A DNA stretch of 64,000 bases, taken from positions 248,001 to 312,000 of IMG/VR virus record IMGVR_UViG_3300042010_000106. One strand, given 5' to 3'. Positions 1,971-41,666 of the stretch are shown here, one piece after another; within the stretch, counting starts at the first letter, position 1, and each line of letters opens with the position of its first letter. The translations under genes were made by a program, and so were the position numbers. Source of the DNA: a virus. Under the pieces are notes generated by a model, which saw only the letters and a list, made by a program, of their open reading frames with translations, made no database searches and was not told where the DNA came from.

Positions 1971-2210
1971 TTAGTTGCAGCGTTCCGGCAGCAACGTTTC
2001 TTTGTTGATTTTTGCAGTGTATTCCTTCGGGCCGATACGTAAGTACACAATACCGTCAGCACACCGCAAGTCACTGTTTTTGATTTCGTAAATCTTGATG
2101 TACTCAGTTTTGCTTTCCATCGTGGCGCGGGTGACAATTTCGTCAGACCCACCACAACCGGCCAGCGCCATGAACGCGATCAACAATACAAAACCGATTG
2201 CGCATTTCAT
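1971..2210 (-). CDS. Small lipoprotein
   Basis: 79 residues with a classic lipoprotein signal peptide: basic N-terminus, hydrophobic core at residues 4-15, and the lipobox LAGC with Cys19 as the lipidated residue. The mature ~60 residues contain two more cysteines (about 50 and 78) that could form a disulfide. It should be exported and anchored in the host envelope; superinfection exclusion or a spanin-like role are possible but not shown. Its ATG overlaps the stop of the upstream metalloprotease gene. Confidence 0.8.
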   Translation of the reverse strand: MKCAIGFVLLIAFMALAGCGGSDEIVTRATMESKTEYIKIYEIKNSDLRCADGIVYLRIGPKEYTAKINKETLLPERCN

Positions 2211-3379
2211 CAGTCAGCCGCCTGTGCTTTCTTGACGGTTTTTTCCAGAAGCTTTTTGATCGTCTTCGGCAATTCTTTACCCGTGAAGTGGTATGCGAAT
2301 GCTTCGGCGAAAAGTTCCTGTACGCTGGTCTTGGCGTATTCCGAAATCAGCGAATCGGAATGCGAGATTGCCGCGCTGGTCGGCCAGATGGCGCTGAGTG
2401 CCTTGCTGTTTTGGTTCAGCAGGATATTCAAATCTTCCGGCGACATTTTGTGGATCTTTTTCAGATACGCGAGCGCATCTTTGAACATTGCCAGTTCGTC
2501 TTCTTCGATGTCGCTTTGGAATTCGCGAACCGATTGCTGCGAAGAAACCAGTGCAGTGCAAAGGTCTTCCATTTCGGATTTCTTTGCCTTGGTCACTTTG
2601 GTTTGTTCGTTGTAGATTTCCAGCCACTCGGAACGAGTCTTTTCATCAACGAAACGATACCACACAGCGTGGCCGAGTTCGTGCATGAAAATGTATTGGT
2701 TGTACAGTTGATCGTTCAGAACTTTCGGGTGCAGTTTGATGATGTCCTCTGCGCTACCCGATTTGAAACTGACTTGATACGAACCGGCCCACTTGCCTTT
2801 TGGATTGTGGACTTCGATGCGCTGAATCGGCAGAACTTTCGACAGGCCCATGTCGCCCATCTTGGCTACGACTTTCTTGATCGCTACTTTGATAGCTTTC
2901 TTTTCGTCGTCGTCAGTTTTGCGGAAATAGTGCATAGGGCCGAGGTCGGTTTTGACTTCGCCGTAATGCAGAGTGATTTGCACACCGAATGCTGCGCCCG
3001 GTGCAGGATCTTTACCGATGTTTGCAATCAGTGTGTGTTCGTCGTATTCGAACGTTTGTGGCTCTTCACTGTGCAGCGTGTCTTCGATGTAGCAAGTGTT
3101 ACGCTTCGGCGAATGGGCCAGTGCCAATTTGTTTTTCTTGCCTACGCGGACGATGATGTAATCGTCTTTTGCAACTTCGATCAGAACGCGGTCGCTCTTC
3201 ACTTTGGCAACAGCAGTTTTGCCTTCGGTGTCGCCGCCGCTAACGTCCACAACTACGTCGCTGCTTTTCTTTTTCTTTTTGGTCGGCACGTCAAGGTCGA
3301 GTTTCTTTTTCTTCACCAGCACTTTACCGCTCGATTCCTTGTTCTTTTTCTTCTTCTTTTTCTTGATGTCATCAGACAT
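2210..3379 (-). CDS. Zincin-like metalloprotease with poly-lysine N-terminus and DVSGG motif
   Basis: 389 residues from the ATG at 3379, chosen because GGAGA precedes it at good spacing. Residues 1-40 are lysine-rich (runs of five to seven Lys). Residues 41-49 are DVVVDVSGG, shared with three other proteins of this window. A globular part carries HELGH (residues 233-237), the zinc-binding HExxH signature, and QELFAEAF with Glu359 as a candidate third ligand. This fits a gluzincin-type metallopeptidase. The substrate is unknown; head maturation or a packaged enzyme acting after injection are possibilities. The stop codon overlaps the lipoprotein start. Confidence 0.75.
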   Translation of the reverse strand: MSDDIKKKKKKKNKESSGKVLVKKKKLDLDVPTKKKKKSSDVVVDVSGGDTEGKTAVAKVKSDRVLIEVAKDDYIIVRVGKKNKLALAHSPKRNTCYIEDTLHSEEPQTFEYDEHTLIANIGKDPAPGAAFGVQITLHYGEVKTDLGPMHYFRKTDDDEKKAIKVAIKKVVAKMGDMGLSKVLPIQRIEVHNPKGKWAGSYQVSFKSGSAEDIIKLHPKVLNDQLYNQYIFMHELGHAVWYRFVDEKTRSEWLEIYNEQTKVTKAKKSEMEDLCTALVSSQQSVREFQSDIEEDELAMFKDALAYLKKIHKMSPEDLNILLNQNSKALSAIWPTSAAISHSDSLISEYAKTSVQELFAEAFAYHFTGKELPKTIKKLLEKTVKKAQAAD

Positions 3380-7824: not shown

Positions 7825-8304
7825 TTATTCCTCCTTGAGTTTGTACATGAATTGCAGCGTGCCACCTTCTGGCGAACCGTGCATGATAGAACCGTCGCGG
7901 ATTTCGAACAGAGACTGCGCGGCGTTGATACGATCACACATCGACGGGAAATCACCCGGACGCAAATCAATTTTCTGACCTTCTGGCTTGGTCACGAAAA
8001 TATAAATGCAGCGGTCGGCCATGCCAATTTTTACACGGTCTTCGTGGCCTACCCACATTGCGAATTCATCGAGGCGCAGAAATTCTTCGCAAATCAGGAA
8101 ACGCATGGTGGCGCTGCCGACAGACAAAGCCACTTCCAAATCCTTTGCCATCCAGCCTTTGAAATCCACGTTGATTTCGCCGATGGTTTGCCCGCGCAGG
8201 AAATTCAGATTGTCGTCGTAGCGCATGCTGAAAACATTGCCATCGCGTGTAGCAGGTTCGTCACGTTCATGCAAAACAACTTTGATTGGATTGAGGTCGG
8301 TCAT
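7825..8304 (-). CDS. Unknown 159-residue protein
   Basis: 159 residues, mixed alpha/beta, slightly acidic, no signal peptide or known motif. Its start overlaps the stop of the upstream gene by four bases. Confidence 0.7.
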   Translation of the reverse strand: MTDLNPIKVVLHERDEPATRDGNVFSMRYDDNLNFLRGQTIGEINVDFKGWMAKDLEVALSVGSATMRFLICEEFLRLDEFAMWVGHEDRVKIGMADRCIYIFVTKPEGQKIDLRPGDFPSMCDRINAAQSLFEIRDGSIMHGSPEGGTLQFMYKLKEE

Positions 8305-9383
8305 CGCAGTTTATATCCTTTGGAAATGTTGCGGAGAGGTTCGGTTGGTTGCAGAACACGTGTCGAGCAAACCCATTCAAGGCGGCGCTGGTCAGCAGTG
8401 ATTTTCCGTTCAACGTCACGTACTTTCATGTACAGGCCGCGATCTGGAATGCAGATGATATCCCCTTCGTTAACGGCGCTCACTTCTGGCCCCAAAACAA
8501 TTGGAATATCACTCATTGTCATAAGCCGATCGTAATCGAGTGTGGTGTTTTCCCCACCGATATTGCACAGCAGTTTTTGGATACCCATATCGAATTCAAC
8601 AGAGACGTGGGTGAACCGCGAACTGATTACTTTGACACGAATTGTTTTACCAGCATGACGGCGCAGGTCGGCAATCAGAATTGGCACGCCATCCATACGC
8701 AGCAGGCGCTCTTTCAACAATTGCAAATCGTTGCGAATGCTGTACGTGGCCGATGCAAAGAATTTCGGCACCAGAATATCGAACGCAACAAAACCTTGCG
8801 GATGTTCTTTATCCATTGAGTGCGGCGCACTGGTCGAATCAATGTGATAGCCATCAATTTGCGCAATGTTCAAATGCGTGAACAACCGGCGCTGCTGACC
8901 GTACATTGTGTAACCCGGTTGGCGCAGAGTGCGATAGCAGATACCACAATTCACAGAACCAGTTGCAACGCTGTCTTCGAATTCTTCCGCTTCCAGCACA
9001 CCGAGAACGCCAGTGTTATCGCGTCCACCAGAAACGTCGAGGATTACATCGTCGTTCATGATTTTTTCGGCCATATCCAGACCAAAAATATCGTCGTCCT
9101 GCATATCCATTTCAATATCGTCAATGAAACGATCTTTCTGCGGAATGACCGGCGCCATGTTTGAGTTTTCACCGCGTGGGATATTCGTTTGGAAACACGA
9201 ACACGGACGGCCAACCAAACGGTTAACCTGATACAGCGTTACTTCGACGGCATCAACCGCCAAACTATTTTGAACCTGATTGTTAAAAGCCTCAACCGTT
9301 TCCGTTAGGCGCGCTTGAGCTTGCTTGGGGATTACGTTGCGGGCGTGACGACGTGCATGTTTAGCTAGGCCCTTCTTGATCAT
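8301..9383 (-). CDS. Probable virion-associated protein with DVSGG motif
   Basis: 360 residues. The N-terminal ~30 are strongly basic, then comes an acidic stretch (85-111) and then DVILDVSGG at residues 112-120, the nonapeptide shared with three other proteins here. The C-terminal ~200 residues look like a beta-rich globular domain; CGIC near residue 145 is a possible metal pair. The start is set by AAAGGAGG just upstream. First gene of the leftward unit. A structural role is inferred only from the shared motif. Confidence 0.7.
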   Translation of the reverse strand: MIKKGLAKHARRHARNVIPKQAQARLTETVEAFNNQVQNSLAVDAVEVTLYQVNRLVGRPCSCFQTNIPRGENSNMAPVIPQKDRFIDDIEMDMQDDDIFGLDMAEKIMNDDVILDVSGGRDNTGVLGVLEAEEFEDSVATGSVNCGICYRTLRQPGYTMYGQQRRLFTHLNIAQIDGYHIDSTSAPHSMDKEHPQGFVAFDILVPKFFASATYSIRNDLQLLKERLLRMDGVPILIADLRRHAGKTIRVKVISSRFTHVSVEFDMGIQKLLCNIGGENTTLDYDRLMTMSDIPIVLGPEVSAVNEGDIICIPDRGLYMKVRDVERKITADQRRLEWVCSTRVLQPTEPLRNISKGYKLR

Positions 9384-28201: not shown

Positions 28202-29212
28202 TTGGGTGTTCCCGCATTGCAAATACAATCAAAATACATTGATGACAATCCAAATGTCATTGATTTAAAGAATGCCCGAAACGCTAATGAAGTGATTACA
28301 GTTCTTTCGAAGATCAACACAACATTTAGCGTATTGGTTGCCAAATTCAATCAAAAGAAGCTTCCATATTTGAAAGTTTCTGACGCCGTAGAAGCATTGA
28401 AATTCTGTGTTGATTCAATGGTAGAGATTCGTTGCGCCCGTTCGGTTGCGCAGGAGTTCAGCGATTCAAAACGCGACCGTTGTTTCAATATGATTGCAGC
28501 ACAGTTAACGAACATTCGGGACTTTCAAAAGACGCTGCTGGATTTGATCGACAGCGTATGCGCAACCCGTATGGATAAACACCTTTCGTTCTTGTCTGAA
28601 ACCGTATTCAAGATCCTTTCCAAAATCAGCAACACAACGCAGCTTCACGTACGCTTGCCAGATCAACAAATGATTTGCATTCGAACCGATAGCGGTGTGA
28701 CTGACAAAGACGGATACGTAAGCGGGCCAATCACAATCAAGCTGATGCTGGTTGGCGGCAATTATCGGATATCAATTCCTGATTCCCCATTCGTTGCATC
28801 TGAGGAATCCAACGTCTTCAATTCGAAAGACGTTCAATCGTATATCATGGGGAATTTGTCAGACTTCGCGCACGTTGGAAAGCCTGTGCCAAAGGATGAT
28901 CAATTGCTCGCATCGAACATGGTTCAAAGCGTTGACGTTACCGAGGAAGCATTGGTCGTTACGCTCAAACCTTCTGTGCGTCCCGATGATATCCAACGCT
29001 TGTTAACGCAGGTGCTTCCGTACCTGAAACGAGCTGTGAATTTGTCGGGCACGGATATCATTCACCGTGTCTCGCAATACGGCCCGAATCGCACAATCTC
29101 GTTTATTGTGGCAAAGCGTAAAGTGTATGATGCAAGGTCATTGACCAAGCTGACTAAATTGCTCGGCGCGTCGAAAACCGAAGTCGAAAAACTCAACTCA
29201 ATTATGGAATGA
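28202..29212 (+). CDS. Unknown protein at start of probable virion block (TTG start)
   Basis: 336 residues if it begins at TTG 28202; the open frame begins only at 28181 and the first in-frame ATG is over 180 bases further on, after conserved-looking sequence. No Shine-Dalgarno is seen before 28202 or before the second TTG at 28217, so the true start is uncertain. Helical N-terminal half, alpha/beta C-terminal half. No family recognised. Overlaps the next gene (ATGA). Confidence 0.6.
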   Translation: MGVPALQIQSKYIDDNPNVIDLKNARNANEVITVLSKINTTFSVLVAKFNQKKLPYLKVSDAVEALKFCVDSMVEIRCARSVAQEFSDSKRDRCFNMIAAQLTNIRDFQKTLLDLIDSVCATRMDKHLSFLSETVFKILSKISNTTQLHVRLPDQQMICIRTDSGVTDKDGYVSGPITIKLMLVGGNYRISIPDSPFVASEESNVFNSKDVQSYIMGNLSDFAHVGKPVPKDDQLLASNMVQSVDVTEEALVVTLKPSVRPDDIQRLLTQVLPYLKRAVNLSGTDIIHRVSQYGPNRTISFIVAKRKVYDARSLTKLTKLLGASKTEVEKLNSIME

Positions 29213-30366
29213 CCATGAAAATACCAAAGCCCTCGACATACGCCAAGATGGAGAAAATGTCGGACGCACAATTGACAGCGTATTTTGAAAAACGCCTGCC
29301 ACTGTACCGCCGTGCACTTGCTCGCTTGACATCGTTTCTGCGTCAAATGGTCGGTCGTGTGTTCAAAGGTAAAAACCTTGCAACTGCGTCTGATGTAATC
29401 CTGAACATTTCCGGTGGCGAAGGTGGCAAAACTTCCCATTCGGATTCGGGCACCAGCCTGACCGTTAGCAAGTTCGATCACCCCGGCCCGCGTAAGCTCG
29501 CTGGCTACATTGATGCACTGGAACAAATCGAATACATCGGCGAACTGGATTACCAGATTACCCGGTACGCTGACACTGAAAACAAATCGCTGCAAAAGGT
29601 TCAAAAACTTCGCGTGAGCATGTACAACAGTTTGGTTGACGCTTACGTTGAAGCAATTGAAGCAATGCGCGACATCGCCAAAAACAAACTGCCTGAACCA
29701 GTGGGCAATCTGTTCAAAGCAGCCAAGAAATACTTCGATCCAAAAGAAGTAGAATTCATTGAGAATTACAAGGCTGCAAACGACGGCGACGAACCGGAAC
29801 ACATGCTGGATTATTACATCAACGTCGGCGTGAAAGACAACGTTGTTGACATCGTTTTCAACGCAGACATTTCGCACTGGCCGCGTGAAACGAAAGAAGG
29901 TTTGATGGTCGCGGTAATCACCGTGCGCCTTGAACCAACTGAAGACGCGTTCACCATGAAAGCTTATGCGAACGTTCTGGATCGCGTGGGCCTGCCGGGT
30001 CGCTACAACATCGGCACCGAATTGAAAGGGAAAGACATTCCCGAAATCGCGAAGAAAATTCCGAAAGCTTTCGACATGGAATTGGCCGCGCACAACATCA
30101 TTTCGTTCATGGCTCCAGTTAACCTGAAGCTGGACGAAACCGAAGTTGAAGAACGTCTGATGAAAATCGAAGGCGTTAGCGGTGTTGTTGTAAATGACGA
30201 CGGCGTGATGATTGAAATGACCGATGATCGTGGTGTGCACCGTGAAGCAATGGCCGCGCTCGACACAATCCCATCGGTTAAAAAGCTGATTCGTTCGGGT
30301 TATTCTCGCACGCTGGCAAACCCTTCGCCGGGTAGCTACCTGTACAGCGTAACTCTGAAGAGCTGA
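29209..30366 (+). CDS. Probable virion protein with DVSGG-type motif
   Basis: 385 residues from 29209; an ATG two codons later (29215) has a better-spaced GGA. A basic helical N-terminus (to ~55) leads to DVILNISGG (residues 62-70), the motif shared with the products at 3379, 9383 and 33437, then a Gly/Ser-rich linker and a large alpha/beta body. No enzymatic motif. Overlaps neighbours by four and one bases. Confidence 0.7.
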   Translation: MTMKIPKPSTYAKMEKMSDAQLTAYFEKRLPLYRRALARLTSFLRQMVGRVFKGKNLATASDVILNISGGEGGKTSHSDSGTSLTVSKFDHPGPRKLAGYIDALEQIEYIGELDYQITRYADTENKSLQKVQKLRVSMYNSLVDAYVEAIEAMRDIAKNKLPEPVGNLFKAAKKYFDPKEVEFIENYKAANDGDEPEHMLDYYINVGVKDNVVDIVFNADISHWPRETKEGLMVAVITVRLEPTEDAFTMKAYANVLDRVGLPGRYNIGTELKGKDIPEIAKKIPKAFDMELAAHNIISFMAPVNLKLDETEVEERLMKIEGVSGVVVNDDGVMIEMTDDRGVHREAMAALDTIPSVKKLIRSGYSRTLANPSPGSYLYSVTLKS

Positions 30367-31262
30367 TGTATACGCATATCGGCATGCCGTTTGATTTTCG
30401 TCTTTCGGCATGGCCTTACGGCGGCGATAGGTACGTCACGACGTACAACACTGACCGTTATCAAATCGACATTCGTGCGATTTGCGATTACGTCGAAGAA
30501 CAACTGCGCAAATCTCCTTTAGCATTCGTGCTGAAAACGACGTTCACGCTTGTGAATCTTTATTCAGGATTCACCGATACAAGCGTGGGCCTCGTTATGG
30601 AGCCTGCAAAGAAAGTTCGACGCGATCAAGTTGTGTTCACATTCACCCGGACAAACGTAGACGAATCGGGCGATCCGATGTTTATGCACTGGCTGAACAA
30701 TTACACAATTCAGTGGGGAACAAATACGAGTCGCAGTTCTGATTACATTTCAATTGCCGTTCCAATCACTGTAGCGACACGTGCCCGCCTTCAGCAAATG
30801 ACGGACAGGGAACAGAAAGCGCTATACGACATTGTGGGCGGCTATTCGAAAGCTGTGATTCGTTCGATCCACGAATACGACGGTTCGGTTTTATCCACGC
30901 GGAATTTCCTACGCTACACAATCCCACGCGCCATGTTCTATATGGCGATTAGCGATTGGCAGTACGTGTTGGACTTCTGGAAACGCATGCCGGATTTGAT
31001 ACACGTTAACTGGACTCCGAAATTCATCGAATATTACGTTCGATACATTGCGCCTAAGCTGCCTGACCGCAAACGCAGCAAGTATTACGCGCAGTACGAA
31101 GAGGAAGTGCAGGAACACTTACGGCAATTCGTTCTCCGGTATCTGCAAAACACCGTGCAAAAAGAAGAAGTTAATCTGGTTGCACTTTTACCCGCAGATG
31201 ACGCAATGATTCACGACGTTGAAACGTTGGTGTTTAATCTGTCGAAGGGGATAATCGCATGA
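30366..31262 (+). CDS. Probable virion protein, unknown
   Basis: 298 residues rich in Tyr, Phe, Trp and Arg, mixed secondary structure, no signal peptide. Tightly coupled to both neighbours. The virion assignment rests on its place between two probable structural genes. Confidence 0.6.
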   Translation: MYTHIGMPFDFRLSAWPYGGDRYVTTYNTDRYQIDIRAICDYVEEQLRKSPLAFVLKTTFTLVNLYSGFTDTSVGLVMEPAKKVRRDQVVFTFTRTNVDESGDPMFMHWLNNYTIQWGTNTSRSSDYISIAVPITVATRARLQQMTDREQKALYDIVGGYSKAVIRSIHEYDGSVLSTRNFLRYTIPRAMFYMAISDWQYVLDFWKRMPDLIHVNWTPKFIEYYVRYIAPKLPDRKRSKYYAQYEEEVQEHLRQFVLRYLQNTVQKEEVNLVALLPADDAMIHDVETLVFNLSKGIIA

Positions 31263-32473
31263 CGAATGTTTATGAAGGGCAGACGGCTACGATTTCCGAG
31301 GAATTTCTTGATGATTTCGATCAAGTTATTTTGCCTCGCGAATCTACGCCTGCCCCGTTGGTGCGATTATTCGACACTGACAAAACAATCATCGCTGAAG
31401 TCTACGCAAAGCCAGATCCAAAGATTGCGGGAACGTGGGTTGCTGATATCCCAATCCCGAACATGGATTTGCGCGACACTACGAAGTTTGTAGCGAAGTG
31501 GAGTTTCGAAAGCGACGAAGGTGTACACACTGCAAAAACAACGATAATGGTAGAGCCTGCAACAATGGGGCGCGAATCCGACATTGTGATTTTGTGTGGA
31601 CACGACAGCCGTATGCAGGTGACGATTCCAACGAAAGTAAAGTTGGGTGTTGCTGAAAGAAAAGCAGACCTTGCCCGCGCAGTTAAGGCACGGCCTGCAA
31701 AGGAAGGCGACTCGCTTTCAATGTCGCTTTACTACAACAACAAAGCCGTATTCGAAGCACTCGACAGTACAAACACTGCCGTGAAAATCGAAACGTCTGA
31801 AAACAAAACATTAATCGACATGCCTGCTGTTGTTGGTAAACCAGCAATGGCACCAATGTCGTTGATCGTTAAGCACAAACCAACACGGAAAATTGCAGAA
31901 ACTTCCTACACCTACAAAGTGTGGGCGGTTACTCCGCAAATCCTGTTGGCTGCGCGACAACTTGAAGATTTCATCGACAAGGCGCGCATTGCGAATATCA
32001 TTCCTGAGTTGGAATATACACAGGGTGATTTGCTGGAATTCTTGACGCGGGGCCTGATGTATTTCAACGCTTTGCAACCGGTAATGACAGCGTTTACAGG
32101 AACCAATATGCAAGGGCCTTTGATGAACTGTTGGTTGGTTTGTTCCAGCCAATACGCATTAGGGGCACAAGCACAGGCAGAAGGCGCATTAGCTTTTGAT
32201 TTCGGTGGTCAAACCGTTAGCCTGAACATCGACCGCACCCCTGCAATTGAAGCGGCATTAGGTCGCATTGATGCAGAGATTGAAGGGATGGTTAAACCAT
32301 ACAAAAAACTGCTTGGTAAAACAGGCGTTCTGGATGGTGACGGTTCACAAGGCGGCAAATTCATTGACGGTTCCAGTCACATGGGCGTTCTTGGTTTGTC
32401 GAATACTCCATTGACACGAATTGGCCGTGGCCGAAGTGGCATGAGTTCCAGTTTCTACCGATCTTTCTTCTAA
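31259..32473 (+). CDS. Probable virion structural protein
   Basis: 404 residues. The N-terminal ~120 look like an Ig-like beta sandwich (alternating strands, GTWVADI, FVAKWSF). The C-terminus is Gly/Ser-rich. No catalytic motif. Composition and place before the abundant-looking gene at 32523 suggest a head, neck or tail component; which one is not known. Confidence 0.6.
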   Translation: MTNVYEGQTATISEEFLDDFDQVILPRESTPAPLVRLFDTDKTIIAEVYAKPDPKIAGTWVADIPIPNMDLRDTTKFVAKWSFESDEGVHTAKTTIMVEPATMGRESDIVILCGHDSRMQVTIPTKVKLGVAERKADLARAVKARPAKEGDSLSMSLYYNNKAVFEALDSTNTAVKIETSENKTLIDMPAVVGKPAMAPMSLIVKHKPTRKIAETSYTYKVWAVTPQILLAARQLEDFIDKARIANIIPELEYTQGDLLEFLTRGLMYFNALQPVMTAFTGTNMQGPLMNCWLVCSSQYALGAQAQAEGALAFDFGGQTVSLNIDRTPAIEAALGRIDAEIEGMVKPYKKLLGKTGVLDGDGSQGGKFIDGSSHMGVLGLSNTPLTRIGRGRSGMSSSFYRSFF

Positions 32474-32522: not shown

Positions 32523-33371
32523 ATGAGCTTTAACCTTTCTCGCGCTGCTACCGCTTTGGTTTCGGGCGCTCACAAAGAAGTTGCAACCGTTACCATTCGT
32601 GATGCTGTGCAAATTGATGATCGTTTCGCACGCGTCATTGCCACCGCATCCGCCACCGCTACCCCGGCACAAGTTGCTGAAGGTATCAAACAACAATTCC
32701 GTGGCGCCGTAGCCATTCCGGGTTCGTTCGTTGCTCTGTCTTCCAGCAAAGCCATGACCGTATTCGAAGGCATCGTTGGCGTTGTTGCACAGCGCGTTGT
32801 TCTGACCGATGAAAATCGTGAGAATTACAAAGCCGTTGCTGCAAACATGTTCATGGACGAAGGCGAACAACTTTGGTCGCTGCGTCAAACCGCAACCGGT
32901 CAAGTTCTGGTGAAAGCCGCTGATAGCGAAGCTGATCACGCTGTCATGAAACATCTGATGGCCTGTGCATCGACCGATTACAACCAATTCGAACACCGCG
33001 ATATCGGCGTAGAAAATGCGCAAATTCGTGCAAGCGTTCAAGGTGGTGATTTGGTTTCGTATATCAGCCAGCAAAGCGCCGACCTGCAAATGGGTATCGC
33101 CACTGCTTCGGTTGAAAACGAAGACGGCACCGATGCTCACATGATCGCTGTTGTTCGTCCAAACGGCCAAGCCGAAACCGTTAACCGCGAAATGATCGTG
33201 GTTGCCGCTACCTTCGAAGAAGACGCCGAAGACATCAAGGAAGCCGAAACCGCTACCGCTGGTGCAATGGACGTTGAACGTTTCAATTCGTATTACGCTC
33301 GCGTGTTCGCACGTCGTCCTGCGTACTTCGAAGAATTCATGAAACGTGTTCGTTCGTACGTGTTCATGTAA
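32523..33371 (+). CDS. Probable abundant structural protein
   Basis: 282 residues, Ala/Val/Thr-rich, acidic, no Trp-rich or catalytic signature. It has its own promoter-like element, a good ribosome-binding site (GGAGATACACA before ATG) and a strong terminator, so it is a single-gene transcription unit, as expected for a highly expressed virion protein such as a tube or decoration protein. No family recognised. Confidence 0.65.
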   Translation: MSFNLSRAATALVSGAHKEVATVTIRDAVQIDDRFARVIATASATATPAQVAEGIKQQFRGAVAIPGSFVALSSSKAMTVFEGIVGVVAQRVVLTDENRENYKAVAANMFMDEGEQLWSLRQTATGQVLVKAADSEADHAVMKHLMACASTDYNQFEHRDIGVENAQIRASVQGGDLVSYISQQSADLQMGIATASVENEDGTDAHMIAVVRPNGQAETVNREMIVVAATFEEDAEDIKEAETATAGAMDVERFNSYYARVFARRPAYFEEFMKRVRSYVFM

Positions 33372-33436: not shown

Positions 33437-34237
33437 ATGGCGAAGAAATCAAAGGACGTTGTTTTTGACGTTAGTGGGGGCAGCACAAAGATTGACGAAC
33501 GTGGAAAGCTGCGCAACCGTGACGCAGACGAAGCCGACCGTGGATCAATGGGCAGTAAAGGCAAGAAGAAAAAGAAAAGCAAGATTGAAAAGCGTGAAGC
33601 AATTGTAATCGAAGATAACACGTACAAAGCTGGACAAGAAAAGAAGAAAAAGAAACGCAAAACTTCCGACTCTACAGAAGTCATTCTACCGAAGAAAAAG
33701 AAACGTTTGCCTGTCACCATTGAAGGTGAAAAAAGCCTCGTTGTACTGAAGGCAACGAAAGGCGACCAGAAGAAACTCGCGAAGGCTCAAGCAGCCATCG
33801 AAGAATTTAACGAATTGCCACCTCCTGTTGATGAATTCGACGCGGTGATTCGTGCCAAGTTTGAAGCGCAAGTAGACCTTGCCGCTCGGCTTGAAGAACA
33901 AATGGAAGACCGTATTTATGCACGGGATGTTTACGCATTGAACACCGTGTATAACCAGATTCGGGAAATGATTGCAGACCTGCGCGCAAGCCGTGACGTG
34001 AGCGCACAAGTTGATGAAATTCAAACGGTAGTTATTCTGCCGTATCACCGCGTTGTCGGTGAAGCACTTGGTTTGATTTTCTTCCACGTAGAAGGCTCCA
34101 TTCGCAAATTCGTAAAGGATGGGGATTTGCAGGAAGAGATTATCAAGAAGCTGAAGAACTCGATTCACGAAAGTGCTGTGCAATTGCAGGGTGAATACAA
34201 CGCCGCGACTGATCGCGTACGGAAAGTATTGCTATGA
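33437..34237 (+). CDS. Lysine-run protein with N-terminal DVSGG motif
   Basis: 266 residues from ATG 33437 (GGGGGA upstream). DVVFDVSGG occupies residues 7-15, then come lysine runs (about 40-48, 66-75 and 84-91) and a helical acidic-basic body. The N-terminal plan of lysine runs plus this motif is shared with the metalloprotease at 2210-3379. Likely packaged with or bound to DNA, by inference. Overlaps the HNH gene by four bases. Confidence 0.7.
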   Translation: MAKKSKDVVFDVSGGSTKIDERGKLRNRDADEADRGSMGSKGKKKKKSKIEKREAIVIEDNTYKAGQEKKKKKRKTSDSTEVILPKKKKRLPVTIEGEKSLVVLKATKGDQKKLAKAQAAIEEFNELPPPVDEFDAVIRAKFEAQVDLAARLEEQMEDRIYARDVYALNTVYNQIREMIADLRASRDVSAQVDEIQTVVILPYHRVVGEALGLIFFHVEGSIRKFVKDGDLQEEIIKKLKNSIHESAVQLQGEYNAATDRVRKVLL

Positions 34238-35651: not shown

Positions 35652-38600
35652 ATGTCTGAACTTTGGGCAAAAAATCGAATCGCGGATTCGATGGCTCGTT
35701 ATCGTGAATCGGAATTCATGGCAACAGCCGCAGACGACACAACCACCGAAACCAACTTCGTCCGCTCTATGCGTCCGGTCGCCCTCGACATGGATCGTGA
35801 TAAAGAATTCGAAGGTTTCTTCTTTCCAAAAGGCGAAGCAACTCCAGACGGTTACACGGCGCGTGAATTCTTGCTGCCTGTTCTGGAATCGCTGAGTGAT
35901 GTAACGTCGAACATCAACCTGTTCTACGCGTTCATGCGTCAATGTATGAACAACGCCAACCACATTTCTGGTATGAGTCAGGAAGACGCACAGACTTATA
36001 TCGACATGTATTTCCACGACACGTTCCGTATGAAACGTGCCGAAAGCTCTACCAAAACAATCGTACAAAACTTCCTGATCGCAATTCGCGCATCGTCTTC
36101 TTCGTTCCACAATATCTATCGTTCTGCTCGTTATGCAGACGGTGTTGATATCGTGATGAATGGCACCGGTGACGACGTACGCGGTCGCGATGTTCCGCCT
36201 GTGTTCTTCGGTTCCATGGACGCTGATTTGCACGGCCCATCGTTCCTGAATAACGGCGGTCGTCACGAATGGGCAGTTGATCGTGAACGTCGCGGCAAAT
36301 GGCAATCCACTTTCGGTCTGAATCTGGTAGCCGCTGCAAAAGATATCAGCGTTTTCCTGTTTGGCACTTCTGCAATCAGCGACCGTACGCTTCACAAATC
36401 GCTGAGTCTTTCGACAGAATTCACAAAGATTGAAGAAATCTTTACCCGTCACACCGGGTTCAAACTGCCGAAGGAAATGATTACCGACCTGAACATTACC
36501 AACCATTTGGCAGAGCAATTTCTGCAAGTGGAAATGCTCAAGGTTCCAAGCGGCATGGCGAAAAACGTTGCAGCACGTGTACGCGCCGGTAACATCCGCA
36601 AGCCGTCTGACTTCACTGGTGAAGTTGGCCGCTCCAGCATGCACGAAGCGAACACGCTTGTTGAACATCGTATGAACAGCGACGATGAATTCATTTCGCC
36701 TGAAGCTGAAGCGCTGAACGTTTGCCTGCGTTCTACAATTCGTTTCACACTGGAAAAAGACATCGCAAATTATGTCAGCCAGTCTGAAGAACACGAACGC
36801 CCAAGCCTGAGCCGTATCAACGCGTGGTTCTCCCTGTACATCGGCCAAGTATTGCGCGCACGTGCGACCGCAAAACGTAAAGGCCAACCGAAATCGCGTA
36901 ACGCTTCGACAATCAGCATGAACGACATTCCTCGCTATGCGATGGGTGCAACAACGCTGAAGAAATTGTCGGATATTCGTGCGTCCAATGGTTTCGTTGT
37001 AGAAAAAACCAAAGGCAACAGCGAAGACATGTATGTAACGCCAAGCGGCACGTTGTCTGTGCGCCCAAGCGTTGACGCATTCAAAGCTTCCACACAAGCA
37101 GAAGACTACGAAAAGTTGTCTGATGAAATTCTGGAAATTTTGAACCGTTACGACATTCCGATGGCTGCTTTCCAAAGCAATCCTCGCGCTGATGCGTGGC
37201 CGCACATTAACGCAGTTGATATCGAAAAGCTGTGGGAATTGCTGCAAGAATTGAAATCGTATGACGGCGCTCTGATCGGTTACGATTGGGACTACGGCGT
37301 ACAGATTTATGCTTCGTCCACTCCCGGCATTCTGACGACTTCGTTGGAAAACGGTGCTGTAACTCCTGACGCTTTGACCATTGCCGACCAGCTCGGTTAC
37401 AACATGGCGAAAGAAGGTCAGCAGCCGATGAAACGTAGCTTTGCGTCTACTATGTACACGCTGACTTACGCGCATCCGGTTGGACAAGTTAAACGCGAAT
37501 CGGAACGTATGTACGGTGCCGACGCAGATGCAGGCGCAGCAGCTTTTGCGAAGTCGAACATCGTAAAAGAAATTGTTAACCTGTACCTGAAACTCGCGTA
37601 CAACGATAACAAAGCGCCGAAAATGGATGTGCTTGCGAAGAATGCAATGCGCGCCCTCGGCCTTGAGAAATTGCCGACTGAAAAAGGTCACGATTACTCT
37701 TCGCTTTACCTGCGTTATTTCACCCCTGAAGGTGACATGAAACGCGAAACAACCACGTCTATTCGTGCGTTGCCTGTCGAACTGCTGGCCGATGCAATGA
37801 CGCAAGCAAGCGGCGGGCCGGGTTCGCAATTGTGGCATGACACCTACGAACAAATGGCAACCGGCGACAAATTGCCGAAGTCTTATGAGGTTGCGGAGGA
37901 ACTCGAAAACCATCCGAACTTCTTCAACACTTCGACATCGACTACTGCTGAATTCACCAAGCTGTATTCGTATTTCGGTGGTCAATTCTTCAAACAAATT
38001 CTCGATGCAATCAACAGTATTCCGGCCTCGGATTATCTGAACGAACGCAAATCGAAAGTAAGTGTTGAAGTCGGTGCAAACCCGTATCGTGATGATGGCA
38101 TTCCATTGGTTCTGGAACTGACTACACCGTCCAACACCACGATCATGAAAGACATTCTCCCGTACACTTTGATGCTCGGGAAATACGCAGTAAATCACGA
38201 AACGATTTTCGCTGAAGCTGACGAACAAGTAGAATCGTTGCAGCCGGATACTGGTTTCACCGCTGACGATTTGAAAATTCCGGGCATGGTTGCAGATGAT
38301 CGCGCCATTTTCCCGCACCAAGAAAGCGTGCAAGCTTCGTTGCGTAAACCAGTTCCTCCAGCCTTCGCAATTCTCGCACTTGATCCGGGTGGTGGTAAAA
38401 CCGGCCAAGGCGTAATCGACATGACCTGTATGGTTCGTGATATGTCGAGCGTTGGTAACGTGGTGCGTCCATTGGTGATTTGCCCTAACGGTCTGATTAC
38501 TCAATGGTGTGAAGACATCAAATATTTCCTCGGCGCAAACTGGAACGCGTTTCCACTGTCTGCCGATGTGATGAAACGTTGGGGTCAAGACAAGTTGCTG

Positions 38601-41600
38601 GCGTACGCTGCGAAAGCACCGGCCAACACAATCTTTATCGCTTCGATGACTTTCATTCAAGGCCGTAACGTAAAACTTACCATTGGTAACGCGCAAATCG
38701 ACGTTCCGATGAACCTTGAATTCGTGCGCCGCTTGGGTTGCAGCTATGTTGCAATCGACGAATCGCACAACCTGAAAAACTTCACGTCTTCCCGTCACAA
38801 AGCTGTGAAAGCTCTGACCACTGCAACCACCGTGAAATGGATTCGTCTGTTGACCGGTACAATCATGCCCGACCGCGCACGCGATATCGAAGGCCAGATT
38901 GCATTGCATAGCCCGGCTGTTTTCCGCAGTGGCGAAATCGCGATGATTAAATCCGATGCGGACGTGGGCGAAGAAGACGTAATTATCGACGGCAAAGCTG
39001 TTGCTACTTACACACCGCTCAACGCAAAACGCGCTGTAGATAAGCTGAGTCATTACGCTGCATTCATTGTGAAAAAGCGTAAGGAATGGGCGTTCATGTT
39101 GCCCGCTCCAATCGAACGTTTCCTCGCTATCGGCATGGTCGATACCGACGAAGGAAGCATGACCAGCGAACTTGAACGTGAACAGCAAAAACTTCACGCA
39201 CAACTCTATGAGACTGTGTTGAAGAAAACGCTGGAAGACGTGAAGAAACTGCAAGCGCAGAAAAACAAAGTCAGCGCAGGCGAAGACGAAGAGGAAGACA
39301 ACGGCGGTGGCGAAAGCAACCCGGATAACGACGTTGACTTTGCTGGTGAAAAGATTGACCAACTGACGTGGGAAACAAGTATTGCACGTCTGGAACGTTT
39401 GATCATTGCACCGCAATTCGACGAAGATTTCCAAAGCGTTTTCGGTGATGCTGGCGCGAATTTCAAATCGCGAAAAGCCAAGTACATTGCCAACCTCGTA
39501 GACGACCACTTCCATCCGGCAGCATGGCGCCGGGGCCAGTCTTACAAAGAATACAATTTGGTTGCCCATGGCGATAAACTTTATGTTGCTCGCAAATGGA
39601 ACGCTCAAGTTGCAGACCACGTTGCACTTCCACCAGAAGTTCAGAACATTGCACCACCGGATGCGCCTGAATACTGGAAAGAAGAACCACGCGGCAAGTG
39701 CATTGTTATTACACGGTACAACTACAGCGCCCGCGCAGTTTATGAAGCGCTGCCTGCTGAGTACCAACGTCAAGCGGTGATTTTCACCGGTGACGAACCG
39801 AATAAGCACGAAGGGTTTAACCGTTTCAAAACGGATAACAAAATCCAGATCCTTATCGCGAACGAACAAGGTATGTCCGAAGGTCACAACCTGCAACTTG
39901 CAAGCCGGATTATCCGTGCTGAAAGTCCGTGGGGGCCGGGTGCACTGAGCCAGACTAACGCCCGTATTTTCCGTCCTGATCCGAAAGGTGCAATGGCGGC
40001 TGCGAACGGTAGCGGCGAAATGACGCGTGACGTTGTTTTCCTTGATTGGGTATTGGCAAACAACACGATGGAAGTTCCTAAACTTGCGCGTGTTATTTCG
40101 AAGACGTTCGGTATCGTACGTTTCACCGAAGCCGACAACCCACGTTACAAAGGCGTGCTGTCGCAATACATCGTTCCAACCGAAAAGGAAAACCCTGAGC
40201 TTTCCCTCGGCGTGGAAATGTTGGCAAACATTAAAGGTCTGCAAGACTCGCCATTTAAAGAAATGGTTGGTTCTGATACCGAAGTCGGCGCTTATCAAGC
40301 GTTGAACAAAGTTGAAAACCAAGAATTCCGGGAAATGCGCCAGACCCAACGTGCTGTGATGCTTCCAATCCAAGCCGATGCAAACGTGCCCGGTGCAGAA
40401 CGTATGGAAGTGTTGCCTTTCGTGCCGAACCAACCAATTCCAGATCCGAAAGGTTGGGAGCCGGTTGTAGTTGCACACGTATTGCGTGATGAAAAGATCG
40501 CAAGTAATTACGACGAAGAATTGTTCGGTAAACCCGTGATGACAGAATTCGGCCTCGGTCGGATTGTTAACTTCACCACGAAAAAGGGTAGCGGCGGCAA
40601 AGTGCTTTCGAGCATCAAAGTCCGTATCAAAAACCCACCGGCTGACTTCGACGAATGGCAGACCATCGACGCGACACTGGTTCACCTTGTAACTGGTGAA
40701 ATCAAACGCGAAGATTTGCCGTTGTTTGACGTGCCACTTGATCGTACTCCTACGGATGCGAAAAGGTCTGACCGCCAAGCAGAACGTGAGCAGAAACAGC
40801 GCGAAGCACAGGAAGCCGAAGAAGAGAAAGAACGTCAAATTCGTGAACGTCAAGCAGCGAAGACAATCCGCATCGTTAAGAAACAAGATGCCGATGGTCA
40901 GAAACGCCGTGAGAACGAAGCGAAAGGCCGTCCACTCAACGAAGGCGTCTACACAATTGATCAAGGTACACCGCTGCCTACAGCAATCACCAAAGCCGTC
41001 ATTCCTGAAGGTGGTGATCCAACTGTCGGCGTAATCGTTGAAGGGGATAACACAGTAAATGTTTATCCTGCTTACTACCACGGCTTTGCAACACTGGAAG
41101 CTGAGTTCGACGAAACCGCAGTGAACCTGAAAAAACTTGGTTTCAAACACACGCCGCCGTACGCGTTCGTGGTTGTTTCCAACAAGAAGAAATTCCACGC
41201 CATCTACGAATACTTGCACAATAACTTCGATCTTCGCGACAAAACTGTTTCGATGATTGAGGAAATCAACAACGCATTCGAACCGGGCCGGAAAAACGTA
41301 CACAACCTGTGGTACAAACTTGAACTGGCGCCGGTAACGTCGCTGCCGGGTTTCTTCAACACGTCGAAACGTATTGTTGAAAACCGTCGTGAAGTCCGGG
41401 TGTTCCCGGTGTTCATGGAAGATCAAGTCATGCTCTGCATTGACCTGCGTACAAACCCTGCAATTTTGAAACATATCGGCAAAGCAATTCCGGGTGCTGG
41501 TACGAAATGGCAGAAGTCCGATGGTCATTGGTTCTACTTCGGCAAAGGCAAAACTGATTTGCGTGACATGATCGCGAAAATCAAACGCAACGGCTACGAT

Positions 41601-41666
41601 GTTGTGAACGCCAAAGAAGCGCTGAAAGAGCTGACCGAACTTCGGTTCAAATTCCGCAAAGACTGA
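35652..41666 (+). CDS. Giant SNF2-like SF2 helicase, 2004 residues
   Basis: Residues 1 to ~880 have no recognised domain. An SNF2-type motor follows: Walker A DPGGGKT (911-917), DESHNLKN (from 1036), LLTGTIMPD (motif III), and EGHNLQLASRI with QTNARIFRPDP (motifs V-VI, ~1410-1442). Between the two RecA halves lies an acidic insert and, at 1292-1342, a pattern W...Y...V...GD.LYVA...W like chitin-binding type 3 modules. A coiled coil (~1700-1760) and a C-terminal domain of ~230 residues follow. It may be a packaged or injected DNA translocase, by analogy with virion-borne SNF2-type proteins such as P1 DarB, or a chromatin-remodelling-like replication factor. GGAGG precedes the start. Confidence 0.85.
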   Translation: MSELWAKNRIADSMARYRESEFMATAADDTTTETNFVRSMRPVALDMDRDKEFEGFFFPKGEATPDGYTAREFLLPVLESLSDVTSNINLFYAFMRQCMNNANHISGMSQEDAQTYIDMYFHDTFRMKRAESSTKTIVQNFLIAIRASSSSFHNIYRSARYADGVDIVMNGTGDDVRGRDVPPVFFGSMDADLHGPSFLNNGGRHEWAVDRERRGKWQSTFGLNLVAAAKDISVFLFGTSAISDRTLHKSLSLSTEFTKIEEIFTRHTGFKLPKEMITDLNITNHLAEQFLQVEMLKVPSGMAKNVAARVRAGNIRKPSDFTGEVGRSSMHEANTLVEHRMNSDDEFISPEAEALNVCLRSTIRFTLEKDIANYVSQSEEHERPSLSRINAWFSLYIGQVLRARATAKRKGQPKSRNASTISMNDIPRYAMGATTLKKLSDIRASNGFVVEKTKGNSEDMYVTPSGTLSVRPSVDAFKASTQAEDYEKLSDEILEILNRYDIPMAAFQSNPRADAWPHINAVDIEKLWELLQELKSYDGALIGYDWDYGVQIYASSTPGILTTSLENGAVTPDALTIADQLGYNMAKEGQQPMKRSFASTMYTLTYAHPVGQVKRESERMYGADADAGAAAFAKSNIVKEIVNLYLKLAYNDNKAPKMDVLAKNAMRALGLEKLPTEKGHDYSSLYLRYFTPEGDMKRETTTSIRALPVELLADAMTQASGGPGSQLWHDTYEQMATGDKLPKSYEVAEELENHPNFFNTSTSTTAEFTKLYSYFGGQFFKQILDAINSIPASDYLNERKSKVSVEVGANPYRDDGIPLVLELTTPSNTTIMKDILPYTLMLGKYAVNHETIFAEADEQVESLQPDTGFTADDLKIPGMVADDRAIFPHQESVQASLRKPVPPAFAILALDPGGGKTGQGVIDMTCMVRDMSSVGNVVRPLVICPNGLITQWCEDIKYFLGANWNAFPLSADVMKRWGQDKLLAYAAKAPANTIFIASMTFIQGRNVKLTIGNAQIDVPMNLEFVRRLGCSYVAIDESHNLKNFTSSRHKAVKALTTATTVKWIRLLTGTIMPDRARDIEGQIALHSPAVFRSGEIAMIKSDADVGEEDVIIDGKAVATYTPLNAKRAVDKLSHYAAFIVKKRKEWAFMLPAPIERFLAIGMVDTDEGSMTSELEREQQKLHAQLYETVLKKTLEDVKKLQAQKNKVSAGEDEEEDNGGGESNPDNDVDFAGEKIDQLTWETSIARLERLIIAPQFDEDFQSVFGDAGANFKSRKAKYIANLVDDHFHPAAWRRGQSYKEYNLVAHGDKLYVARKWNAQVADHVALPPEVQNIAPPDAPEYWKEEPRGKCIVITRYNYSARAVYEALPAEYQRQAVIFTGDEPNKHEGFNRFKTDNKIQILIANEQGMSEGHNLQLASRIIRAESPWGPGALSQTNARIFRPDPKGAMAAANGSGEMTRDVVFLDWVLANNTMEVPKLARVISKTFGIVRFTEADNPRYKGVLSQYIVPTEKENPELSLGVEMLANIKGLQDSPFKEMVGSDTEVGAYQALNKVENQEFREMRQTQRAVMLPIQADANVPGAERMEVLPFVPNQPIPDPKGWEPVVVAHVLRDEKIASNYDEELFGKPVMTEFGLGRIVNFTTKKGSGGKVLSSIKVRIKNPPADFDEWQTIDATLVHLVTGEIKREDLPLFDVPLDRTPTDAKRSDRQAEREQKQREAQEAEEEKERQIRERQAAKTIRIVKKQDADGQKRRENEAKGRPLNEGVYTIDQGTPLPTAITKAVIPEGGDPTVGVIVEGDNTVNVYPAYYHGFATLEAEFDETAVNLKKLGFKHTPPYAFVVVSNKKKFHAIYEYLHNNFDLRDKTVSMIEEINNAFEPGRKNVHNLWYKLELAPVTSLPGFFNTSKRIVENRREVRVFPVFMEDQVMLCIDLRTNPAILKHIGKAIPGAGTKWQKSDGHWFYFGKGKTDLRDMIAKIKRNGYDVVNAKEALKELTELRFKFRKD

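Follow-up and report, generated by a model that had tools for sequence, protein, structure and literature searches.

A short peptide shared by unrelated proteins of a Lu11/PaBG-like jumbo phage as a probable docking tag with lineage-specific letters

Why should proteins with no other evident similarity, encoded on both strands of a jumbo phage genome, carry the same nine residues? The question is raised by a window of 64,000 nucleotides, the whole stretch of DNA that was analysed, which covers bases 248001-312000 of a virus record 312,325 bases long. The record is a Lu11/PaBG-like ("Lupandier") jumbo phage, Lupandier being a group name that covers these phages (PMC7412058); its closest named relatives are the Pseudomonas phages HRDY3, Lu11 and PaBG, followed by NCTB and by Erwinia, Dickeya and Yersinia jumbo phages. 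An earlier note had listed four nonapeptides in the window, and all four are present and in frame; the distances of copies 1-4 from plausible starts, 40, 111, 61 and 6 residues, also agree with the note (gene starts are inferred throughout). When the pattern D[VI]x[LVF][DN][VI]SGG was searched for beyond the window, one extra copy emerged, which brings the total to five instead of four (Table 1). The proteins bearing copies 1-5 are referred to here as c1-c5.

The five occurrences compare with 0.0007 expected in open reading frames (ORFs) of at least 100 amino acids, and the copies score 27-29 bits against their own profile, with every other stretch of the genome at 15 bits or below. BLASTP of each carrier against all ORFs of the genome returns the carrier itself only, in line with the claim that these proteins are mutually dissimilar. 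Between copies, 1-5 codons are identical among 5-8 shared residues; the shared residues are often written in different synonymous codons, hence a recently copied stretch of DNA is not the cause, and the earlier note was right that recent duplication is insufficient. Together with the orthologous sites found throughout the family (see below), this leaves chance, or a recent duplication spreading one short DNA stretch, with a negligible share of the probability, conservation across the relatives refuting both. The nonapeptide is not reported in the literature found by a search that reached few subscription papers.

Table 1. Coordinates of the carriers, motif copies, candidate cleavage sites and other genes discussed (window positions unless another record is named).
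Feature	Position	Strand	Remarks
c1, HExxH (Zn-metalloprotease-like) peptidase-like protein	2210..3379	-	phrog_17197 'peptidase'; Pfam match below cut-off
Motif copy 1, DVVVDVSGG	3233..3259	-	in frame; after the Lys-rich N-terminus of c1
c2 (phrog_21298)	8301..9383	-	conserved across 65 phage records; a beta domain is predicted at its C-terminus
Motif copy 2, DVILDVSGG	9024..9050	-	in frame; predicted disordered linker between two c2 domains
c3 (PaBG gp193 family)	29209..30366	+	in cluster with head-tail connector and 2,004-aa helicase
LATAS, candidate prohead-protease site (LATA/S)	29377..29391	+	one residue ahead of motif copy 3
Motif copy 3, DVILNISGG	29392..29418	+	in frame; carrier c3
Head-tail connector	31259-32473		neighbour of c3
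gp197, with candidate site	32523-33371		
c4 (PaBG gp198 family, phrog_23026)	33437..34237	+	N-terminal half Lys-rich; C-terminal domain conserved
Motif copy 4, DVVFDVSGG	33455..33481	+	in frame; carrier c4
2,004-aa helicase	35652-41666		homologous to the PaBG virion protein gp202
c5	genome 214348-215169	-	tag-terminated protein
Motif copy 5, DVIVNVSGG	genome 214351, outside the window	-	followed by Asn and stop, the C-terminus of c5
Core protein, with candidate sites	L003:5158-7038		
Major capsid protein, with candidate site	L003:7800-8915		
PaBG gp191	PaBG 139631-140629		Lys/Ala-rich histone-like virion protein
Lu11_0105	Lu11 77480-78340		in the c3-c4 cluster
Portal homologue	G022:C1:110284-113613		ORF of ~1,110 aa
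Interrupted RecA, AD1 (W05)	196532-199096		
Interrupted RecA, Yoloswag	194271-196817		
Interrupted RecA, G005	73030-75552		
Interrupted RecA, G018	83482-85761		

In fold searches, the beta domain of c2 ranks beside proteins for the neck, head closure and head-tail joining (BFVD); in the PDB, its neighbours include T4 neck proteins and the connector of P1. Outside its own family, these structural matches have E-values of 0.003 or worse and are hence weak. At E below 0.001, the PDB fold search returned no match for c2 or c5, and PDB profile searches with c2, c3, c4 and c5 yielded no significant hit. c5 is encoded near the SSB, RecA and DnaB genes, and its PHROGs label 'DNA topoisomerase' (PaBG gp113 is labelled alike in its record) is unsupported by Pfam or fold searches. 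The earlier note had placed the motif at a junction behind a basic N-terminal stretch, which describes copies 1, 3 and 4; copy 2 is instead found in an interdomain linker that contains acidic stretches, and copy 5 at the end of its protein. In the AlphaFold models, the motif of c2 falls in a low-confidence linker (pLDDT <50, residues 72-139) between a helix-strand unit and the C-terminal beta domain, and that of c5 within a low-confidence tail, c2 and c5 being the two modelled carriers on which predicted disorder at the tag sites rests. Many tags border Lys-rich stretches.

The comparison was extended to ~25 relatives, comprising HRDY3, Lu11, PaBG, NCTB, Erwinia and Dickeya phages and IMG/VR contigs (~23 IMG/VR records for all carriers). 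In HRDY3, Lu11 and PaBG, every carrier is represented by a homologue whose matching position holds a related peptide in phage-specific letters, and the tag site is retained in nearly all carriers among the relatives, which upholds the proposal of a shared functional peptide; the letters drift, and do so in step within each phage. The resulting dialects are of the types VKVRxVRGG, IDVSGD, AVSLDDI/AIELSDI and EIELGDL. HRDY3, for instance, has AVKVRNVREG in c5, EVKVREVRDG in c3, GVKVRTVRGG in c4 and VQVRDVSG in c2, Lu11 has VxxIxVRGG, and PaBG has DVIISVSGD, DTIIDVTGD and DRRIDVSG (DxxIDVxG). NCTB and Yoloswag carry DDIELGDL-stop, EEFELGDL, AVDLSDL-stop and AVDLSDL. Further records show the same agreement, namely G017 (c1 KIDVSGD, c2 VLDVSGD, c4 RIDVSGD, c5 RIDVSGD-stop), G007 (AVSLDDI, AIELSDI, AISLDDI, VVELGDL-stop), G020 (EFEAADI, EIELGDI, EMELGDF, EIELGDL) and G005 (EIKIQT, EIEITR, EIKII-stop). 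In HRDY3 and Lu11, the tags are also split consistently by carrier, with DVSG[ST] on c1, c2 and c6 (a further tagged protein, see below) and xVRGG on c3, c4 and c5, and the two subtypes could reflect two partners or two binding modes.

The sharing of dialects was put to a permutation test on 17 records, in which stretches fixed by position (the last 35 residues of c5, the first 75 of c4, the first 130 of c3 and the 85 residues before the CGICY element of c2) were compared between carriers by their best 7-residue match, with Lys/Arg runs masked. The summed within-phage cross-carrier similarity was 125.3, compared to 103.9 +/- 2.1 when the phages were relabelled, and none of 5000 relabellings reached the observed value (z = 10), a p-value not to be taken literally since the phages are related and the records are not all independent. 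The control, run on adjacent parts of these proteins, was without signal, with 4740 of 5000 relabellings as high. Since the compared stretches come from non-homologous proteins, such sharing could not be produced by the shared descent of any one protein.

The set of tagged proteins is itself changeable. The tag of c1 is retained in HRDY3, Lu11, PaBG, G001, G003 and G017 and lost in G004, G016, G021, G022 and the Erwinia and Dickeya phages. RecA carries the dialect at its N-terminus in G017 (MAKSKKKDVAVIDVSGD, with VIDVSGD) and in PaBG (GGDVEIDVST), and is without a tag in most other lineages; the GyrB-like subunit of G022 has the tag EVDVTGS at its N-terminus (MARKKGVQEVDVTGSS), and topoisomerase subunit A of PaBG is perhaps N-terminally tagged as well. 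Lu11_0183 and its HRDY3 homologue, together termed c6 and encoded between terminase and portal, are likewise tagged. Thus, RecA, topoisomerase, c1 and c6 gain or lose the tag while its core letters persist, and such gain and loss of clients is typical of short linear motifs.

We consider it probable (roughly 0.78) that the nonapeptide serves as a short linear docking motif for one putative, co-evolving phage partner. The tag would occupy disordered segments, at either terminus or in a linker, of unrelated proteins and, with its alternating hydrophobic residues, could add as a short strand to a single phage-encoded partner, which would in turn gather the carriers at one place. Partner and tags would then drift together, giving rise to a lineage-specific dialect common to the carriers of a phage, and one dialect per phage is the expected product of such joint drift.

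The earlier note had raised another role, that of a cleavage mark for the prohead protease at propeptide boundaries, and this does not hold for the nonapeptide itself. In many c5 homologues the protein stops at the motif (...IDVS-stop, ...LGDL-stop), which leaves nothing downstream to be released and does not fit a cleavage signal. Glu is the last residue of the known prohead-protease sites of T4 and SPN3US (PMC10052503, PMC9026906), whereas the tag has no Glu at a fixed position comparable to their P1, and the major capsid protein, which is shortened by ~20% in PaBG (PMC7412058), does not contain the nonapeptide. Instead, the head proteins have a separate candidate site. The pattern [VILMF]A[TV]A[SAN] is common to the present phage, HRDY3 and Lu11 in only five of 405 orthologue groups, compared to 0.02 expected from shuffles, and these are the core protein, gp197, a 76-residue ORF, the major capsid protein and c3. 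The core protein gp82, whose gene adjoins the capsid gene, has seven candidate sites in the present genome, the capsid N-termini contain [IV]A[TV]A/[SN] (the slash marks the presumed cut), and ATA occupies the corresponding position of the portal. Based on its likeness to V-A-x-E/S of SPN3US, [VIL]A[TV]A/S is proposed from sequence as the site cut by the head protease in the Pseudomonas clade, to which the claim is confined since a simple pattern did not recover an Erwinia-clade version. The candidate site resembles those of SPN3US and phiKZ in its position preferences and in the proteins that it marks (PMC10052503), but lacks their Glu and is distinct from the nonapeptide. Its one point of contact with the tag, and the part of the propeptide claim that stands, is c3, the only carrier with a candidate site, which reads LATA/S-DVILNISGG; no such site was found in the carriers of copies 1, 2, 4 and 5. 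As the candidate site of c3 precedes the motif, the motif would form the mature N-terminus and survive maturation. A role of the nonapeptide as the cleavage signal is hence very improbable. The candidate site would aid the prediction of mature head proteins in this group of phages.

If the nonapeptide is a docking tag, the question becomes where its carriers are taken. A head or assembly side is preferred, though the preference is tentative and falls somewhat short of even odds, because of the candidate cleavage site of c3, the weak neck likeness of c2, and the position of c3 and c4 among virion genes. As a capsid- or virion-targeting tag, a reading marginally less probable again, it would bring internal, neck or ejected proteins into the head and be kept in the mature protein. 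The earlier note had named virion targeting as its alternative, and the support for it is circumstantial. LATA/S upstream of the c3 motif is the site type of capsid, core and portal proteins, c3 and c4 are encoded near the connector, the gp202 homologue and neighbours of gp191 (gp191 and gp202 being virion proteins of PaBG), and the gene for c6, tagged in Lu11 and HRDY3, is situated between those for terminase and portal. On the other hand, no PaBG carrier is among the 14 virion proteins identified from Coomassie-stained bands (PMC7412058), which could reflect low abundance as well as absence, the structural matches of c2 are poor apart from its own family, and the RecA and topoisomerase-subunit clients of some lineages point to DNA metabolism. 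For gp191 itself, no homologue was found in the relatives compared.

These clients, along with the neighbourhood of c5 and the Lys-rich stretches beside many tags, are what commends the second choice, a DNA-replication or factory hub, which is possible but rather doubtful. Its specific form, slightly more doubtful still, is a replication and recombination hub, in which the tag would dock DNA-metabolism proteins on phage SSB, a clamp or a factory scaffold. It is opposed by the apparently head-side placement of c2 and c3 and by the replicative polymerase, which has no motif in its sequence, including its C-terminal tail. Sliding clamps are bound through the consensus QL[SD]LF. The tag as a clamp-binding peptide of this kind was rejected, as its letters differ and the polymerase tails are without it.

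Several known systems offer partial parallels. The capsid targeting sequence of T4 (IPI-IPIII) is likewise a short peptide on different, often basic phage proteins that are thought to be recruited to a common partner; it is N-terminal, about 10 residues long and removed by gp21 (PMC9026906), whereas the present tag may be N-terminal, internal or C-terminal, is not at the extreme N-terminus, and in c3 would remain on the mature protein. In P1, an N-terminal capsid targeting signal sends the very large DarB into the capsid (PMC9024508), but DarB is one protein for which no shared motif is described, and the 2,004-residue helicase of the present phage lacks the nonapeptide. Hub-binding motifs such as QL[SD]LF, the PIP box or the SSB tail are similarly small, mobile, and gained or lost on many clients, although the letters of the tag do not fit them and the polymerase carries none.

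The wider proposal, somewhat less likely than its negation, is that this whole family of jumbo phages uses the tag as a lineage-specific address code. A varying group of proteins would thereby be directed to a single phage compartment or into the virion, with a co-evolving partner reading all the tags; its clients would include a metalloprotease, a neck-like protein, a head protein with a propeptide, RecA and topoisomerase, all as parts of the same tentative joint claim. If true, this would constitute a modular sorting code readable from sequence, by which proteins with the same destination could be listed for uncultivated jumbo phages, and a clear example of a single reader evolving jointly with the tags of many non-homologous proteins. 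It could also provide a route by which foreign proteins are addressed into giant phage particles or factories.

A few other genes of the relatives have unusual structures. The portal homologue of G022 matches the portal in two segments, suggesting an insertion, and Lu11_0105 has two short matches to one region of the capsid protein (residues ~232-325), possibly a repeated capsid-domain fragment. In several relatives, RecA is interrupted near its residue 335 by ~330-400 residues, which may be an intein or an inserted domain (Table 1).
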